This document shows, piece after piece, positions 10,557-24,371 of a stretch of DNA of 31,301 bases; position 1 is the first letter of the stretch; every line of letters begins with the position of its first letter. The notes under the pieces are model-generated. The model saw only the letters and a program-made list of their open reading frames with translations. It had not been told where the DNA came from and did no database searches. A program made the translations under genes and the position numbers. The stretch comes from a virus, in the IMG/VR virus record IMGVR_UViG_3300022925_000105, positions 1 through 31,301 of that record. One strand, written 5' to 3'.

Positions 10557-11471
10557 ATGGCGACTGATCTATACACACCGCAAACGCTACCGTCCGTCCT
10601 TCCGTCTTATACCGGCGGGCCGGTGTACACCAACAACGGCGTGACAGTCCGGGAGATCGCATCTCGCGAGGGATCTGACTCAGCCGGAAGCAGCACAGCT
10701 TCGATCACTTGGCGAGTGTCTGGATCATCCGATCCAACTGTTGGCAGAACTGCACTCAAGAACCTCGGACTGAGTTCGCTAGTGGTAGGCGGGCCGATAG
10801 ATAATATCTATGACGGTCTCGGGTTGGCATCGCTTTCGCGGGAGCGAGTTGCCGACGAAGTTTGGGACTTTACAGCGGAATATCGCCAGCGTGAACCAGA
10901 GCCAGGCGAGTACACGGTATCCATAGATACCAGCGGCGGCCAGATCATGCAGACATACGCTTATGCTGAGGCAAAGTATGTAGCGACTGGCGAAAGTGCT
11001 CCAGGAATGAACAACGCTATAGATGTGCAAGACAACAAGCCGCAGGGCGTGCAGCGGGTTATACCGGCACTTAAACTGTCGATCCGAGCCAAGATCAAGA
11101 CGGCGAATATCACAACTGTCGGCGGAGTCATGGCTTACGCTCAAGTCATCTCGGAATTAACTGGAACGGTCAACAATGCAACCGCATTTGGACAGTTTGC
11201 AGCCGGCGAATTGCTTTTTACTGGTGCGAGCGGTGACATCATCGCGGACGATCCAAGTCTGACTTTCAGCTTTCTAGCATCAAAGAACGTCACTGGGGTC
11301 ACCATCGGAAGCATCACTGGTATCACCAAGAATGGCCACGACTATATCTGGTTCTCGTTCAAGAACGATAAAGACGCCACAACTGGATTACAGCAGAGTG
11401 CTCCACGAGCTGCATACGTGAACCGGATCTACGGCGAGGCTGATCACTCCTTGCTTTACATTGGAGTGTAA
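10557..11471 (+). CDS. Putative distal-tail structural protein
   Basis: A 304-residue beta-rich protein directly after the tape measure gene, where distal tail or tail-tip subunits are found. It contains TASITWRVSGSSDP, DEVWDFTAEYRQREPEPGEY and SIDTSGGQIMQTYAYAEAKY, and ends in NRIYGEADHSLLYIGV. I do not recognise a named family. The position and lack of enzyme motifs suggest a structural role in the tail tip. No membrane segment or signal peptide is seen. Neighbour genes are close (3 bases on either side), so it is part of the tail operon. Confidence 0.6.
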   Translation: MATDLYTPQTLPSVLPSYTGGPVYTNNGVTVREIASREGSDSAGSSTASITWRVSGSSDPTVGRTALKNLGLSSLVVGGPIDNIYDGLGLASLSRERVADEVWDFTAEYRQREPEPGEYTVSIDTSGGQIMQTYAYAEAKYVATGESAPGMNNAIDVQDNKPQGVQRVIPALKLSIRAKIKTANITTVGGVMAYAQVISELTGTVNNATAFGQFAAGELLFTGASGDIIADDPSLTFSFLASKNVTGVTIGSITGITKNGHDYIWFSFKNDKDATTGLQQSAPRAAYVNRIYGEADHSLLYIGV

Positions 11472-15169: not shown

Positions 15170-15493
15170 ATGGCAACATTTGACATGGAAGAGTCAAAGC
15201 GACTCAAGGAACGCGGAATCAGGGTAGCAGCGGAAAAGCGACCGGAGCTATTGCGGATCGCCAGAACCATCGCGAAGGAGATCGCGGTATCTCAGGGAAC
15301 GGTCACAGCGGATGACGTTGCCGAGGAACTGCGAGATCGAGCACTCGGTGACATGGGGCCGGCTATGGCAGCAGTTTTCAGAAGTCGTGATTTCGAGTGG
15401 ACTGGGCTTCGGGTTATGTCGAAACAAGTAAGCAATCACGGACGCGAACTAAAGGTTTGGGCGACACGAAAGCAAGGAGCTGATCATGAATGA
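15170..15493 (+). CDS. Hypothetical protein, first gene of early block
   Basis: A 107-residue helical, basic protein of unknown family. Residues about 22-56 (PELLRIARTIAKEIAVSQG followed by TADDVAEELRDRAL) look like a helix-turn-helix or winged-helix element, and the rest contains AAVFRSRDFEWTG and SKQVSNHGRELKVW. It overlaps the helicase gene by 8 bases. As first gene after the terminator and promoter it may be an early regulator or a partner of the helicase, but this is inference. Two ATGs in frame (15170 and 15185) are possible; the upstream one is used. Confidence 0.62.
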   Translation: MATFDMEESKRLKERGIRVAAEKRPELLRIARTIAKEIAVSQGTVTADDVAEELRDRALGDMGPAMAAVFRSRDFEWTGLRVMSKQVSNHGRELKVWATRKQGADHE

Positions 15494-16871
15494 TTACGAG
15501 CTATTTATAGAGAGTAAAAGAAAGTCTCTGCAACCATGCGGATTTGGTCCAGTTTCTGAATTGAATAGGCATTTGTTCGACTGGCAGGCTCTCGTAGTCG
15601 AGTGGGCTTTGAAGCGTGGGCGTGCTGCACTATTTGAGGAGTGCGGACTCGGAAAGACGCTTCAGCAATTAAGCTGGGCGGAGCAAGTCGTAAAGAAAAC
15701 AGGAAAGCCGGTCGTTCTTCATTGTCCTGTTGGCGTTAGGCAGCAAACGAAGAGCGAAGCGGAAAAGTTCGGCATTGATGTTGATGTAGTTATCGCAAAT
15801 GAGCAGAGTGACGTCATCAATGGCGTCAACCTGGTCAACTATGAGAAGCTACATCATTTTGATCCGACTACGTTTGCCGGCGTCGTTCTTGATGAATCGT
15901 CGATATTGAAAAACGCATTCGGAAAGATTAAGCGGCATCTCGTGGAAGGATACAGCAAGACACCATATCGACTTGCATGTACAGCTACGCCGAGTCCAAA
16001 CGATCACATCGAGTTAGGCACTCACGCAGAGTTTCTCGGCATTTGCGAACGCGAGGATATGTTGAGCAAGTATTTCGTCCATGATGGAAGCGATACAAGC
16101 AAGTGGAGATTGCGAGGACATGCAAAAAAGCATTTCTGGGAGTGGGTTGCTTCGTGGTCAGTTTGCATCAGCAAGCCAAGCGACATCGGCGGAGATGATA
16201 CCGGATACGAGTTGCCGGAATTGTACGTCAGGCGTCACACGGTCGAGGTCAACGAGAACAACGAAGTAGAAGGCTATCTGTTTAATACGTCTGGAATATC
16301 TGCAACAACAGTTCACGAAGAAAAAAGGCTTACGTGTGAAGCACGATGTAATCGCGTGGCGGAAATTGTGAACGAGCTAGATGAGCCTGTTATTATTTGG
16401 TGCGATACAAACTATGAAGCCGATGCACTTCTCGACCGATTATCTAATTGCTCGGAGATCAGAGGATGTCACAAGGAATCATACAAGGAGTCGCTGCTAA
16501 ATGATTTCAGTAGCGGCAATATTCAAAAGCTAATCACAAAGCCAAGCGTGGCTGGATTCGGCATGAATTGGCAGCACTGTAAGCGTCAGGTCTTTGCAGG
16601 TCTTTCGTATAGCTTTGAGAGCTATTATCAGGCGGTGAGGCGTTGCTGGCGATTCGGGCAGACCGATGATGTTTACGTTGACATTGTTCTGGCTAATACC
16701 GAATCGTCCCTGCATTCAGCCGTTGCGAGCAAAGAGGCAGATCACAGGCTGATGCGGTCTGAAATGGCAGAAGCGATGCGAACTGTATCGCGAAAGAATA
16801 TCGGAATTGATAAAGGCAAGGCACGTTACCAGCCGGCCATCAATGCAACCATACCATCGTTTTTAGGATAA
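15486..16871 (+). CDS. SF2 (SNF2/DEAD-like) helicase
   Basis: A 461-residue ATPase of helicase superfamily 2. Motifs in order: GLGKT Walker A at residues 54-58, DESS (motif II variant of DEAH) at 136-139, TATPS motif III at 166-170, and QAVRRCWRFGQ motif VI at 382-392 with the arginine fingers. The arrangement fits SNF2-like phage helicases that remodel or unwind DNA at forks or recombination intermediates. It sits directly before a DNA methyltransferase gene, a pairing seen in other phages. The start ATG is close to the stop of the previous gene. Exact substrate cannot be read from sequence. Confidence 0.9.
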   Translation: MNDYELFIESKRKSLQPCGFGPVSELNRHLFDWQALVVEWALKRGRAALFEECGLGKTLQQLSWAEQVVKKTGKPVVLHCPVGVRQQTKSEAEKFGIDVDVVIANEQSDVINGVNLVNYEKLHHFDPTTFAGVVLDESSILKNAFGKIKRHLVEGYSKTPYRLACTATPSPNDHIELGTHAEFLGICEREDMLSKYFVHDGSDTSKWRLRGHAKKHFWEWVASWSVCISKPSDIGGDDTGYELPELYVRRHTVEVNENNEVEGYLFNTSGISATTVHEEKRLTCEARCNRVAEIVNELDEPVIIWCDTNYEADALLDRLSNCSEIRGCHKESYKESLLNDFSSGNIQKLITKPSVAGFGMNWQHCKRQVFAGLSYSFESYYQAVRRCWRFGQTDDVYVDIVLANTESSLHSAVASKEADHRLMRSEMAEAMRTVSRKNIGIDKGKARYQPAINATIPSFLG

Positions 16872-16874
16872 GAA

Positions 16875-17801
16875 ATGAATAGTGCAATCAATCAAGAGAG
16901 CGGCGAGAATTGGCATTTATATCACGGCGATTGCTGTGAGGTGTTGAATCTAATGCCAGATAACTCGATGGACTTCAGTGTATTTAGCCCGCCATTCGCG
17001 AGCTTATATGTTTACAGCGATAGCGAACGCGACATGGGAAACAATGAGACTGACGAGCTTTTCTTTGCTCACTTTAAGTTTCTAGTTGATTTGCTTCTGA
17101 AAAAGATCAAGCCAGGTCGATTGGTCTCGGTTCACTGCATGAATTTACCGTCAACCATAAGCCATCAAGGTTATATTGGCATCCGCGATTTCAGAGGCGA
17201 GATAATTAGGACGTTTGTGGAGTCTGGGTTTTACTATCACAGCGAAGTTTGCATCTGGAAAGATCCAGTTGTAGCAATGCAGAGAACGAAAGCACTTGGA
17301 CTACTTCATAAGCAAGTCAAAAAAGATTCGACAATGAGCAGGCAAGGCATACCCGACTACGTGTGCACATTCAGAAAGCCAGGTAAAAACGAAAGTCCAG
17401 TAGCAGGAGAGTTTAAGTATTTTGCCGGCGATGTCGATGAATTTAATAAGCGAGAGAAACCTGGCAACCTGTCTATTGATATTTGGCAACGGTATGCGTC
17501 GCCTGTCTGGATGGACATAAAGCAAAGCAACACGCTGAACAGCAGAATGGGCCGAGAAAGCAACGACGAGAGACACGTCTGCCCATTGCAGTTGGATGTA
17601 ATCGAGCGATGCTTGCAGCTATGGAGCAATCCAGGCGATGTCGTGTTATCACCATTCGCTGGAATTGGATCTGAGGGCGTTGCGTCATTGAGAGCCGGCA
17701 GAAAGTTTGTCGGAGTTGAACTTAAACAGAGCTACTTTGATGCAGCAAAGGGATTTCTAAAAAGCGAAGAATCAGAGCAAGCTATACCATCACTTTTCTA
17801 A
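16875..17801 (+). CDS. DNA methyltransferase (N6-adenine/N4-cytosine, beta class)
   Basis: A 308-residue S-adenosylmethionine-dependent DNA methylase. The catalytic motif IV is SPPF at residues 38-41, and the AdoMet-binding motif I is SPFAGIG at 259-265 near the C-terminus. The order IV then I marks the beta class, which includes N6-adenine and N4-cytosine enzymes. No restriction endonuclease gene is next to it, so it is an orphan, most likely protecting phage DNA against host restriction or marking DNA for the phage's own use. It lies three bases after the helicase stop. The recognition sequence is not predictable from this alone. Confidence 0.9.
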   Translation: MNSAINQESGENWHLYHGDCCEVLNLMPDNSMDFSVFSPPFASLYVYSDSERDMGNNETDELFFAHFKFLVDLLLKKIKPGRLVSVHCMNLPSTISHQGYIGIRDFRGEIIRTFVESGFYYHSEVCIWKDPVVAMQRTKALGLLHKQVKKDSTMSRQGIPDYVCTFRKPGKNESPVAGEFKYFAGDVDEFNKREKPGNLSIDIWQRYASPVWMDIKQSNTLNSRMGRESNDERHVCPLQLDVIERCLQLWSNPGDVVLSPFAGIGSEGVASLRAGRKFVGVELKQSYFDAAKGFLKSEESEQAIPSLF

Positions 17802-17813
17802 GAAGGGCAAGGA

Positions 17814-17972
17814 ATGTTAATTCTTACACGCAAACCAGGCGAACGTATTAAAATTACCGACGGGGACAAGACCATCGAGATACATCTGCAATGGTCAAAG
17901 AAGTCAGCGGCGTCAATCGGAATTGTCGCACCGCAGGACTACAAGATTTCTCGACCGAAAGAAAATCAATGA
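17814..17972 (+). CDS. csrA: Phage-encoded CsrA/RsmA-type RNA-binding regulator
   Basis: A 52-residue protein starting MLILTRKPGERIKI, an almost canonical CsrA N-terminus, and containing IGIVAPQDYKISR (residues 35-47), matching the IGVNAPKEVSVHR region of E. coli CsrA. Residues known to contact RNA in CsrA, L4 and R6 and the arginine equivalent to R44 (here R47), are kept. CsrA dimers bind GGA motifs near ribosome sites and control translation or mRNA decay. The protein is a little shorter than host versions, with a trimmed C-terminus. It has a ribosome site AGAAGGG (17801-17807) and its own start lies next to AAGGA, a possible autoregulatory target. The stop overlaps the next ATG (ATGA). Confidence 0.88.
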   Translation: MLILTRKPGERIKITDGDKTIEIHLQWSKKSAASIGIVAPQDYKISRPKENQ

Positions 17973-18196
17973 CATCCTCGCGCGACTCGCGTCGCGGTGA
18001 ATCAAGAAGCACCACAAAAAGCGACGCGGGTCGAGTGCGAGGAAACCGTAACCGCTGCAATCAATGCAGCAATCCCACTTACCAAACCATCTGCTCGGAG
18101 TGCATGTGCAATGGATGCAAAAGACTCTACATATTGTGTGAATGCGATAAAACAGGAGAGGCTTCCAGCATGGCTGGAAAGAAGCGACGCAGTTAG
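17969..18196 (+). CDS. Small zinc-knuckle protein
   Basis: A 75-residue basic protein coupled to csrA by ATGA overlap. An arginine/serine-rich N-terminus (about residues 1-29) precedes eight cysteines in C30-x2-C33, C42-x2-C45, C47-x2-C50 and C57-x-C59, enough for two zinc sites. The layout suggests nucleic-acid binding. Its second half overlaps another reading frame (17997-18380). The regular cysteine spacing argues that this frame is truly coding. Family unknown; with CsrA it may form a small regulatory pair, which is inference. Confidence 0.6.
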   Translation: MTSSRDSRRGESRSTTKSDAGRVRGNRNRCNQCSNPTYQTICSECMCNGCKRLYILCECDKTGEASSMAGKKRRS

Positions 18197-18380
18197 AAAC
18201 GCCATCGCGAAAATAGCGACTAGGCTGACCGAGATGCACAGCGATGAACGCGAGCAAGTCAAAGAGGCTATGAAACGCGGCGACACATCAGCAGCGTTAT
18301 CACACGCTGAACGAGCGGAGGCTTTCTACGAAGCATCGCGAGAAGCTCACAGTTTTATTTTAAGGAGTCAGTGGCTATGA
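18111..18380 (+). CDS. Small helical protein overlapping the zinc-knuckle gene
   Basis: Only this frame is open across 18197-18376, so it must code for something here. The helical part, LPAWLERSDAVRNAIAKIA to AERAEAFYEASREAHSFIL, looks like a real protein of unknown family. The start is unclear: a GTG at 17997 gives 127 residues, the ATG at 18111 used here gives 89, and an ATG at 18234 gives 48. The stop overlaps the ATG of the next gene (ATGA), which supports the 3' end. It is overlapped upstream by the zinc-knuckle gene in another frame. Confidence 0.5.
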   Translation: MDAKDSTYCVNAIKQERLPAWLERSDAVRNAIAKIATRLTEMHSDEREQVKEAMKRGDTSAALSHAERAEAFYEASREAHSFILRSQWL

Positions 18381-18653: not shown

Positions 18654-18919
18654 CTGATTGGGTATTCAGGGGAGAGAGACGCCGGCAATTTGATGACTGG
18701 TGGGAAATAGCAAAGCCGCAATTCAATATGCCGGACGATCCAAAAGTACAGATCAGCGGCAAGCAAGGCGACTTTATGCTGGCTTGCCTGCGAGCATACG
18801 AGCAAGGACGGATCGACGAGCGAGAGGACGCACACGAGATCCGCAAAGAGTACGACGCGACTGGTAGGGTCAGTCGCTTTTCTGATGTAACGCTAACGCG
18901 AGAGGATAGCGATGAGTGA
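18650..18919 (+). CDS. Hypothetical protein
   Basis: An 89-residue acidic protein, with a WVFRGERRRQFDDWWEIAKP N-terminus and helical CLRAYEQGRIDEREDAHEI near the centre. It is coupled upstream by ATGA to the tiny membrane peptide and overlaps the RecT-like gene by eight bases. No family recognised and no motif for enzyme activity. It is placed with the recombination genes, so an accessory role to them is possible but unsupported. Confidence 0.62.
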   Translation: MTDWVFRGERRRQFDDWWEIAKPQFNMPDDPKVQISGKQGDFMLACLRAYEQGRIDEREDAHEIRKEYDATGRVSRFSDVTLTREDSDE

Positions 18920-19502
18920 AGAGAACGAGTTGATAGAGATGCCGGCAGTTATCGAGACGGAAAGAGAGCCAGAAACCGCTTTGGCTTTGGTCGAGGCGGA
19001 TACGCGAAAGTTTGAGCTGGTGCAGCGAGAAGCAAAACTGCTTTCATCATCCAAGTTGGTTCCGACTCATTACCAGGGCAACATCGCTGATGTAGTGGTA
19101 GCCATGAACATGGCTCGCCGGATGAACGCAGATCCGTTGATGGTGATGCAGTCGCTGCACATCATCCATGGGAAGCCTGGTTGGTCTGCTCAGTTCCTGA
19201 TTGCGAGCTTTAACGCTTGCGGAAAGTTCGGGGCAGTTTACTACGAGTTCAACGACGACAAGAGCGAGTGCACGGCAAAGACTGTCGAGCTTGCGACCGG
19301 AAGAGAGATCGCCGGCCCGATGGTCTCGCTGGAAATGGCGAAGGGTGAAGGATGGGCCACCAAGACGGGATCGAAATGGAAAACGATGCCAGAGCTGATG
19401 CTGAGATACAGAGCAGCAGCATTTCTGATAAGAACCACAGCACCTGAGATCGGCTTGGGGCTATACACGACCGACGAATTGAGAGACATCGACAATGGCT
19501 AG
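18912..19502 (+). CDS. RecT-like single-strand annealing protein
   Basis: A 196-residue protein resembling the RecT/Red-beta superfamily of annealing proteins, which pair complementary single strands during phage recombination and replication. Family-like features: an N-terminal acidic region, then SKLVPTHYQGNIADVVVAMN, ADPLMVMQSLHIIHGKPGW, FLIASFNACGKFG, and the strongly conserved-looking TMPELMLRYRAAAFLIRTTA near residues 157-176. SSB follows immediately, with an eight-base overlap, and a nuclease-like gene comes next, forming a typical recombination unit. Shorter than RecT of Rac (269 residues). No exonuclease domain in this protein. Confidence 0.75.
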   Translation: MSEENELIEMPAVIETEREPETALALVEADTRKFELVQREAKLLSSSKLVPTHYQGNIADVVVAMNMARRMNADPLMVMQSLHIIHGKPGWSAQFLIASFNACGKFGAVYYEFNDDKSECTAKTVELATGREIAGPMVSLEMAKGEGWATKTGSKWKTMPELMLRYRAAAFLIRTTAPEIGLGLYTTDELRDIDNG

Positions 19503-23309: not shown

Positions 23310-23325
23310 CGGATACCAGCACCGT

Positions 23326-23353
23326 GTGAGACTCATGGAATAAGGAGTCACGC
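23326..23353 (+). promoter_or_regulatory. Hairpin covering the metallophosphoesterase ribosome site, with GGA in loop
   Basis: GACTC at 23330-23334 pairs with GAGTC at 23345-23349; below an A-A mismatch, 23326-23328 pairs with 23351-23353. The 10-base loop holds ATGGAA, with GGA at 23337-23339, and the ribosome site AAGGAG (23342-23347) is half inside the 3' arm. A GGA in a loop plus a second in the ribosome site is the usual form of a CsrA-repressed leader, and this phage encodes CsrA. Structure is seen; the link is inference. Confidence 0.4.
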
Positions 23354-23354
23354 G

Positions 23355-24371
23355 GTGGGAAAGAAAAAACAAGCTGACACAAGAAACGTCGTCCGAGAAT
23401 TGCTGCGTGATCATCCTGAAGCAGATACCAGGACGCTGGCGAGACTGCTGCACGATCAATATCCGCACGAGTTCCCAACTGTGGAACATGCTAGAAGTCG
23501 CATTAGGTATCAGCGTGGAGCATCCGGCAAGCAGCGACAGCAAATCATTGCTGACAAAGAGCATTTCCGAGAACACGGAAAGCCAAAGTCCATCAGCTTT
23601 CCAAAGGGGCTCAAACAAGTTCAGAAGCCGGTCAAGATCCGCACGCCTGGTAAGTACTTGGTGCTCTCGGATCTCCATGTGCCGTACCACTGCGAGCGAG
23701 CATTAGAGTCGGCCATGAAAGCGGGAATCGACGCCGGATGCCAGCATCTTGTGCTTAACGGCGATTTCATGGACTTCTATCGGCTTTCTCGCTGGGATCA
23801 AGATCCGCGAGCCAGGAATCCAGAGGACGAGTTAAAGATTGGAGCCGAGGTGATCGGCGAGTTGAATAAGCATTTCAGCTCAGACGCAGTGCGAGTGTTC
23901 AAGGTAGGAAACCATGAGCATCGATATCACGCTTACCTGCATCAGCGTGCGCCCGCACTGGTCGGAATCGAGGACTTCCAGCTTGATCGGATTCTGCCGC
24001 TCAAAGAACACAAGTGGAAATTCATTCAGTCCAAGCAGGAATACCATCTTGGCAAGCTACCGCTGCTTCACGGCCACGAGCTACCCAGGGGACTCACCGA
24101 TCCGGTCAACATCGGTCGAGGTGTTTATCTTCGGGTCGCTGGGACTGCAATGGTTGGCCACTGGCATCGAACCAGCACGCACGTTGAGACAACCGGCATC
24201 GATGAGCGTTTAGTGCCATGCTACTCGCTGGGATGTCTCTGCGATCTCAAACCAGAGTACGCAACGATCAACAGGTGGAATCACGGCTTTGCCATCGTCA
24301 CTGTCGGCGATCGTGGAAACTACCAGGTGCAAAACATGATCATTCACGACGGCGAAGTATTCGCGACATGA
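23355..24371 (+). CDS. Calcineurin-like metallophosphoesterase
   Basis: A 338-residue enzyme with the metallophosphoesterase core motifs in order: DLH at 106-108, GDF at 136-138, GNHE at 185-188, HGH at 239-241 and GHWH at 268-271, which bind the two-metal centre. Phage members act on phosphodiesters such as DNA ends or cyclic nucleotides. The N-terminal ~95 residues are basic and helical and could bind DNA (DTRTLARLLHDQYPHEF). A GTG start is used, with AAGGAG 8 bases upstream; the start codon is read as ambiguous only in that other in-frame starts lie far downstream. Substrate unknown; context suggests DNA metabolism. Confidence 0.87.
   Translation: MGKKKQADTRNVVRELLRDHPEADTRTLARLLHDQYPHEFPTVEHARSRIRYQRGASGKQRQQIIADKEHFREHGKPKSISFPKGLKQVQKPVKIRTPGKYLVLSDLHVPYHCERALESAMKAGIDAGCQHLVLNGDFMDFYRLSRWDQDPRARNPEDELKIGAEVIGELNKHFSSDAVRVFKVGNHEHRYHAYLHQRAPALVGIEDFQLDRILPLKEHKWKFIQSKQEYHLGKLPLLHGHELPRGLTDPVNIGRGVYLRVAGTAMVGHWHRTSTHVETTGIDERLVPCYSLGCLCDLKPEYATINRWNHGFAIVTVGDRGNYQVQNMIIHDGEVFAT

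Follow-up and report, generated by a model that had tools for sequence, protein, structure and literature searches.

The virus record analysed here contains a real gene that encodes a CsrA-family protein of 52 residues. Phage CsrA is already known, and the copy described here is a shortened variant without the tail helix. We put at about 50% the probability that this protein acts as a small dimeric binder of GGA-containing host mRNAs and alters translation in infection, a reading that we base on its CsrA family membership, its fold similarity and the selection acting on it. The whole stretch of DNA that was analysed, a virus record of 31,301 bases that we call the window, may be a fragment because it has no end repeats. 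It encodes a terminase, a portal protein, a major head protein, a helicase, a methylase, csrA, a RecT-like protein and an SSB, and a metallophosphoesterase match fell just below its cut-off. A megablast search of bases 1-25000 against INPHARED returned no matching record, and neither Rfam families nor tRNAs were detected in the window at default thresholds. The features discussed in this report are listed in Table 1.

Table 1. Positions of the window features discussed in the text
Feature	Position	Strand	Basis
Conserved structural-region protein, 304 aa, used for host-group search	10557-11471	+	Genome matches
107-aa gene, immediately 5' of csrA in G013 and G005	15170-15493	+	Locus comparison
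SNF2-type helicase	15486-16871	+	Present in G007; missing from G013 and G005
N6/N4 DNA methylase	16875-17801	+	Present in G007; missing from G013 and G005
Gap before csrA with purine stretches GAAGGG and AAGGA; GGA abuts ATG	17802-17813	+	Sequence; fold no better than shuffles
csrA-like gene, 52 aa, without C-terminal helix	17814-17972	+	Pfam match; silent-only changes over 49 codons; CsrA fold matches
Cysteine-rich (zinc-ribbon-like) protein, 75 aa; ATG overlaps csrA stop (ATGA at 17969)	17969-18196	+	Sequence comparison
RecT-like annealing protein, downstream of csrA	18912-19502	+	Profile matches
Predicted hairpin over ribosome-binding site and GTG start of metallophosphoesterase gene	23320-23357	+	Fold z; relatives

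The original prediction placed a CsrA/RsmA homologue of 52 residues at 17814-17972, and the open reading frame proved exact. Its product matched the Pfam CsrA profile (PF02599) with 43.1 bits against a cut-off of 27 (E = 4.2e-11), and residues 1-47 matched the PHROG 9500 profile, 'CsrA-like regulator' (E = 1e-6). With NCBIfam TIGR00202, the equivalog model for chromosomal csrA, the score was 28.2 bits, below the cut-off of 70.1, which places the protein outside that equivalog. The core RNA-contact positions L4, T5, R6, A39-P40 and R47 are all kept. A39-P40 corresponds to A36-P37 of E. coli CsrA and R47 aligns with R44, so that L4, R6 and an R44 equivalent, as had been predicted, are indeed present. 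In an alignment of 22 CsrAs, M1, L2, L4, R6, A39 and P40 were invariant, and I3, T5, K7, I14, I21, G36 and R47 were conserved in at least 90%. RNA-contact roles of the core residues at these positions (L4, T5, R6, A36-P37 and R44 in E. coli numbering) are described in part in PMC3791407, PMC4005645 and PMC7829508.

A CsrA-like fold might also have been repurposed as a scaffold for protein or DNA contacts, or as virion cargo, with no part in RNA regulation. The score under the csrA equivalog cut-off would suit such a use, as would the one CsrA peptide that was found in virions of Burkholderia phage JC1 (Lessievirus) and that its authors called not definitive (PMC9144972). The retained RNA-contact core argues against it, and we regard this reading as very unlikely. 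The JC1 protein, gp47, is a phage-encoded CsrA like that of the window, but, as described in that source, it has 64 residues and its gene lies between virion genes, whereas the 52-residue protein of the window is encoded ahead of recombination genes.

A sister phage (locus L002; whole record G013) has a csrA of the same length, whose product is 94% identical to that of the window, and the stop-start overlap with the next gene is found in both phages. Over codons 1-49, with 34.0 silent and 113.0 replacement sites, the two genes differ by eight silent changes and no replacement change, a pattern with P ~8e-6 if evolution were neutral. This comparison indicates that residues 1-49 of the phage CsrA are under purifying selection. 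The same data bear on whether csrA is the remnant of a gene that was taken up from a host and is now decaying. Decay would agree with the protein being the shortest CsrA among 136 measured, with the last three codons, in which the residue is changed in all three between the window and L002, and with the lack of csrA in more distant relatives. The silent-only changes in residues 1-49, together with the equal length of the sister CsrA and the overlap shared by both phages, point the other way and appear to make decay the least likely of the alternatives, one to which we give hardly any credence.

The C-terminus of the phage CsrA comprises only five residues past R47, and for this reason the C-terminal helix that follows strand 5 in canonical RsmA/CsrA proteins is absent, in the sequence as well as in the model. 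Tail lengths after the R position were compared in a set of 137 distinct viral and bacterial CsrAs, which was gathered by searches seeded with the window CsrA and its relatives and is thus not a random sample; 136 were measured, and one that is cut by a contig end was left out. A tail of five residues occurred only in the window CsrA and its sister, the next-shortest tail had ten residues, and all others had at least 13. Two related viral CsrAs (L003 and L004, from 10001 onward) carry H instead of R at the R44 position, the only two among the 136 measured to do so.

The AlphaFold2 monomer of the phage CsrA (pLDDT 86.1, pTM 0.60) had strands at residues 11-16, 19-28 and 33-38, no helix, and unpaired first and last segments. 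Such unpaired ends of a lone chain would fit a domain-swapped dimer. The 14 best PDB fold matches obtained with Foldseek were all CsrA/RsmA chains, with weak E values of 0.03-0.53, and no PDB match was found at E 0.001. An E. coli-type CsrA chain of 49 residues that is part of a solved structure (chain 5z38_E) matches residues 1-46 of the window CsrA; it is labelled truncated by its depositors and is not a natural short protein, whereas the window CsrA is naturally short. RsmN of Pseudomonas aeruginosa also lacks the C-terminal helix and is reported to retain RNA binding (PMC3791407). However, strands 2 and 3 of RsmN are separated by an inserted helix, and the phage CsrA has no such insert in either the alignment or the model, which sets it apart from the RsmN type.

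The claim that the RNA-contact residues are intact was upheld for the beta core (strands 1 and 5) but not beyond it, because the helix contacts of the RsmE type have no counterpart in the phage protein. In RsmE, the helix and residues beyond it (Ile47, Arg50, Ile51) are reported to contribute to keeping the looped-out motif base in place, and cutting RsmA into its C-terminal helix abolished function (PMC3791407). C. jejuni CsrA without its 25 C-terminal residues was highly unstable (PMC7829508). Because of these two observations, the short form of CsrA may be weak. The FliW-binding residues of C. jejuni and Geobacillus CsrA also sit in the C-terminal helix (PMC7829508), and the phage CsrA stops short of both positions (C. 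jejuni V51 and N55) whose equivalents would mark FliW control.

In the reading that we prefer, csrA would be expressed from an operon of a tailed phage that runs on into the recombination and SSB genes. Two chains would intertwine strands 1 and 5 to form a dimer, which would bind A(N)GGA sites over the ribosome-binding sites of host, and perhaps also phage, mRNAs. Capture of host mRNAs in this way is possible, and host translation would then be shifted during infection. Loss of the helix might alter the RNA affinity of the protein; it might also remove the FliW-binding site, such that the phage copy would escape FliW where the host has FliW. That this minimal CsrA is an RNA-binding regulator that host FliW cannot switch off is a tentative idea, and we would rather doubt it than rely on it.

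The 304-aa protein of the structural region was used to search for the host group. Among 343 genomes of the phylum to which a Pirellulales MAG belongs, which we take to be Planctomycetota, 31 had a match (best E 7.8e-33). Matches were also found in 12 of 240 genomes that share their phylum with a Lentisphaera MAG (best E 1.5e-18), and in none of 247 from that of Desulfoluna. Because of this distribution over the three phyla, Planctomycetota appear to be the most likely hosts of the phage. We then counted CsrA and FliW in 32 genomes of this group, 31 of which carry the structural-region gene; CsrA was present in 25 of the 32 and FliW in 18, counts for which genome completeness values are not given. 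Eight to ten CsrA matches per genome were obtained in seven of the 32 (G067, G130, G148, G248, G300, G376 and G032); 14 of the 32 genomes, four of these seven among them, gave no FliW match. About 10 kb separate one csrA of G248 (locus L181, about 16300-16440) from genes of terminase and portal type that are distantly related to those of the window phage, and this copy is possibly a prophage csrA. Possible prophage csrA genes near such distant structural genes were seen in two genomes.

An alternative is a dominant-negative partner: the helix-less chain would enter mixed dimers with the CsrA paralogues of the host and lower their activity, and host mRNAs would be set free instead of being repressed. 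The retained strands and missing helix, the presence of up to ten CsrA copies in likely hosts, and the inactivation of RsmA by helix truncation cited above (PMC3791407) are all consistent with a poison subunit. Such a subunit would have no need of the core RNA-contact residues, yet these are kept and are conserved with the sister; according to PMC7366521, there had been no demonstration of mixed dimers of CsrA. We think this explanation unlikely and retain direct binding of host mRNAs as the preferred reading.

The window portal protein led to 29 related virus loci. CsrA was detected in four of the 31 virus records scanned, many of which are short fragments unable to show absence of csrA: G013, G005, G007 and the distant G029, whose portal proteins are 99%, 89%, 88% and 38% identical to that of the window, respectively. 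Longer relatives whose portals have diverged further, G010 (84%), G012 (73%) and G015, G016, G021 and G022 (63-65%), had no CsrA. The csrA slot is conserved in the three closest long relatives (G013, G005 and G007), in all of which csrA is followed by the cysteine-rich gene and then by three further small genes. The CsrAs of G007 and G005, with 62 and 64 residues, are about 40% identical to that of the window and keep the start of the helix (RAEL/RAEI).

The predicted arrangement, with csrA after a helicase/methylase pair and before a run of small genes, was found in the window; among the three closest long relatives, only G007 has this order in common with it. In G013 and G005, csrA lies directly 3' of the gene that precedes the helicase in the window. 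The window and G013 differ by one clean indel of about 2.3 kb that holds the pair (window 15486-17813 vs. about 10000 in L002), and the ribosome-binding site before 15486 serves the helicase in the window and csrA in G013. A tie between csrA and the helicase/methylase pair was ruled out, as the pair is missing from G013 and G005. An obligate pairing of csrA with the cysteine-rich protein was ruled out as well, as homologues of the latter occur in G010 and G012, which are csrA-less. The two genes may nevertheless be co-translated in the window by way of their ATGA overlap. Neither the 75-aa cysteine-rich protein nor the 107-aa protein had a Pfam match. The cysteine-rich gene (17969-18196) itself overlaps an open reading frame of 127 aa (17997-18380) in a different frame, and both have homologues in G005.

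A tyrosine integrase is encoded near the csrA slot in G005 and G010, for which reason some members of this phage family are probably temperate; no integrase was found among the scanned window proteins, a subset of the window open reading frames. In a FastTree analysis, the window CsrA grouped with its sister (0.89) and, at weak support, with G029 (0.70) and next L003/L004 (0.67); a protein this short gives no finer resolution. A search for the donor of csrA among 54 chromosomal loci and 49 distinct Planctomycetota CsrAs found no close donor; the best chromosomal match among the 54 loci, at 55%, was from a Spirochaetia MAG.

Two GGA motifs of the window had been proposed as targets of the phage CsrA, and both are where they were said to be: one at 17811-17813, abutting the csrA ATG, and one at 23337-23339, within the loop of a hairpin that is predicted to be stable. 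Their role as targets was not supported. The csrA start region had no fold better than its shuffles (z -1.27 for 46 nt and +0.14 for 71 nt), and the upstream context of csrA differs in the sister phage. The metallophosphoesterase hairpin was well separated from its shuffles (z -3.78 for 40 nt and -3.00 for 71 nt), but its loop GGA is replaced by GAC in G013, and neither G005 nor G007, which have identical hairpins, contains it. All four phages keep the GACTC/GAGTC stem, and they also keep the AAGGAG site, in which the GGA lies partly in the loop and partly in the stem. This conservation agrees with a stem that covers the ribosome-binding site; the hairpin is possibly a translational control element, and its AAGGAG is a possible candidate site for CsrA.

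We also counted how often a GGA lies within a predicted hairpin loop at gene starts, a measure that is confounded by GGA-rich ribosome-binding sites. This share was 0.29 in the window vs. 0.12 at random positions. In the csrA-bearing relatives it was 0.15 (G013), 0.17 (G005) and 0.18 (G007), with 0.13-0.14 at random positions, and in the csrA-less relatives it was 0.15 (G010), 0.12 (G012), 0.10 (G015), 0.11 (G016) and 0.05 (G021), with 0.07-0.11 at random positions. The excess in the window favours the idea of phage targets put forward in the original prediction, and the trend across phages is weak. CsrA might serve as a timing switch that binds GGA sites in the mRNAs of the phage, among them the csrA start and the leader of the metallophosphoesterase gene, as the GGA at both sites, the excess in the window and the AAGGAG kept in four phages would suggest. 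Since the loop GGA is missing in three relatives, the csrA leader is without a fold and the other csrA-bearing phages stay close to background, we consider a timing switch quite unlikely.

Phage CsrA has been reported in 30 of 2517 phage genomes (PMC7366521). A set of phage RsmA/CsrA proteins from GenBank and IMG/VR has also been described, whose authors suggest that the phage copies manipulate the host and have an anti-CRISPR role, and found phage CsrA to be correlated with host CsrA (PMC8450108). That set is the same kind of observation as the window csrA, and the part of the paper that was covered makes no mention of helix-less forms or of Planctomycetota. A literature search of titles and abstract starts found no published case of a CsrA in a planctomycete phage. 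The GenBank phage records that matched the window CsrA were all Pseudomonas phages (9/9), AUS531phi among them. Bci of AUS531phi and, in P. aeruginosa phages, the RsmM type are phage-encoded CsrA domains, as is the window protein. However, Bci has 123 residues, is 42.6% identical to the window CsrA over residues 1-47, and comes from a different phage of a different host phylum. Deletion of Bci was reported to lower infection and to change quorum-sensing gene expression, motility and biofilm (PMC7546807), indicating that a phage CsrA can change both infection and host regulation, and we count this for the reading of the window protein as a regulator of host translation. Counting against that reading are the lack of a Foldseek match at E 0.001, the failure of the proposed GGA targets, the hosts in which FliW is missing (14/32), and the lack of csrA at portal identities of 84% or less except in G029.

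Phage CsrAs are thought to reprogramme their hosts, and in the sources available a deletion test was found only for Bci of a Pseudomonas phage. The present data extend the theme of phage CsrA to phages of Planctomycetota, some genomes of which have up to ten CsrA genes. As a natural CsrA of 52 residues that has the RNA core and lacks the helix, the window protein would offer a direct way to test whether RNA binding depends on the helix or whether the helix serves mainly for control by partners such as FliW. If the phage copy is indeed blind to FliW, hosts with several CsrA paralogues would be reprogrammed at the level of translation by a protein of only 52 residues.

At its far end, the window also encodes an HNH endonuclease (PF01844; 30796-31278). 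It has weak similarity, far below the cut-offs, to the HNH regions of Cas9d, IscB and Cas9 models, and it is 92.5% identical in G005.
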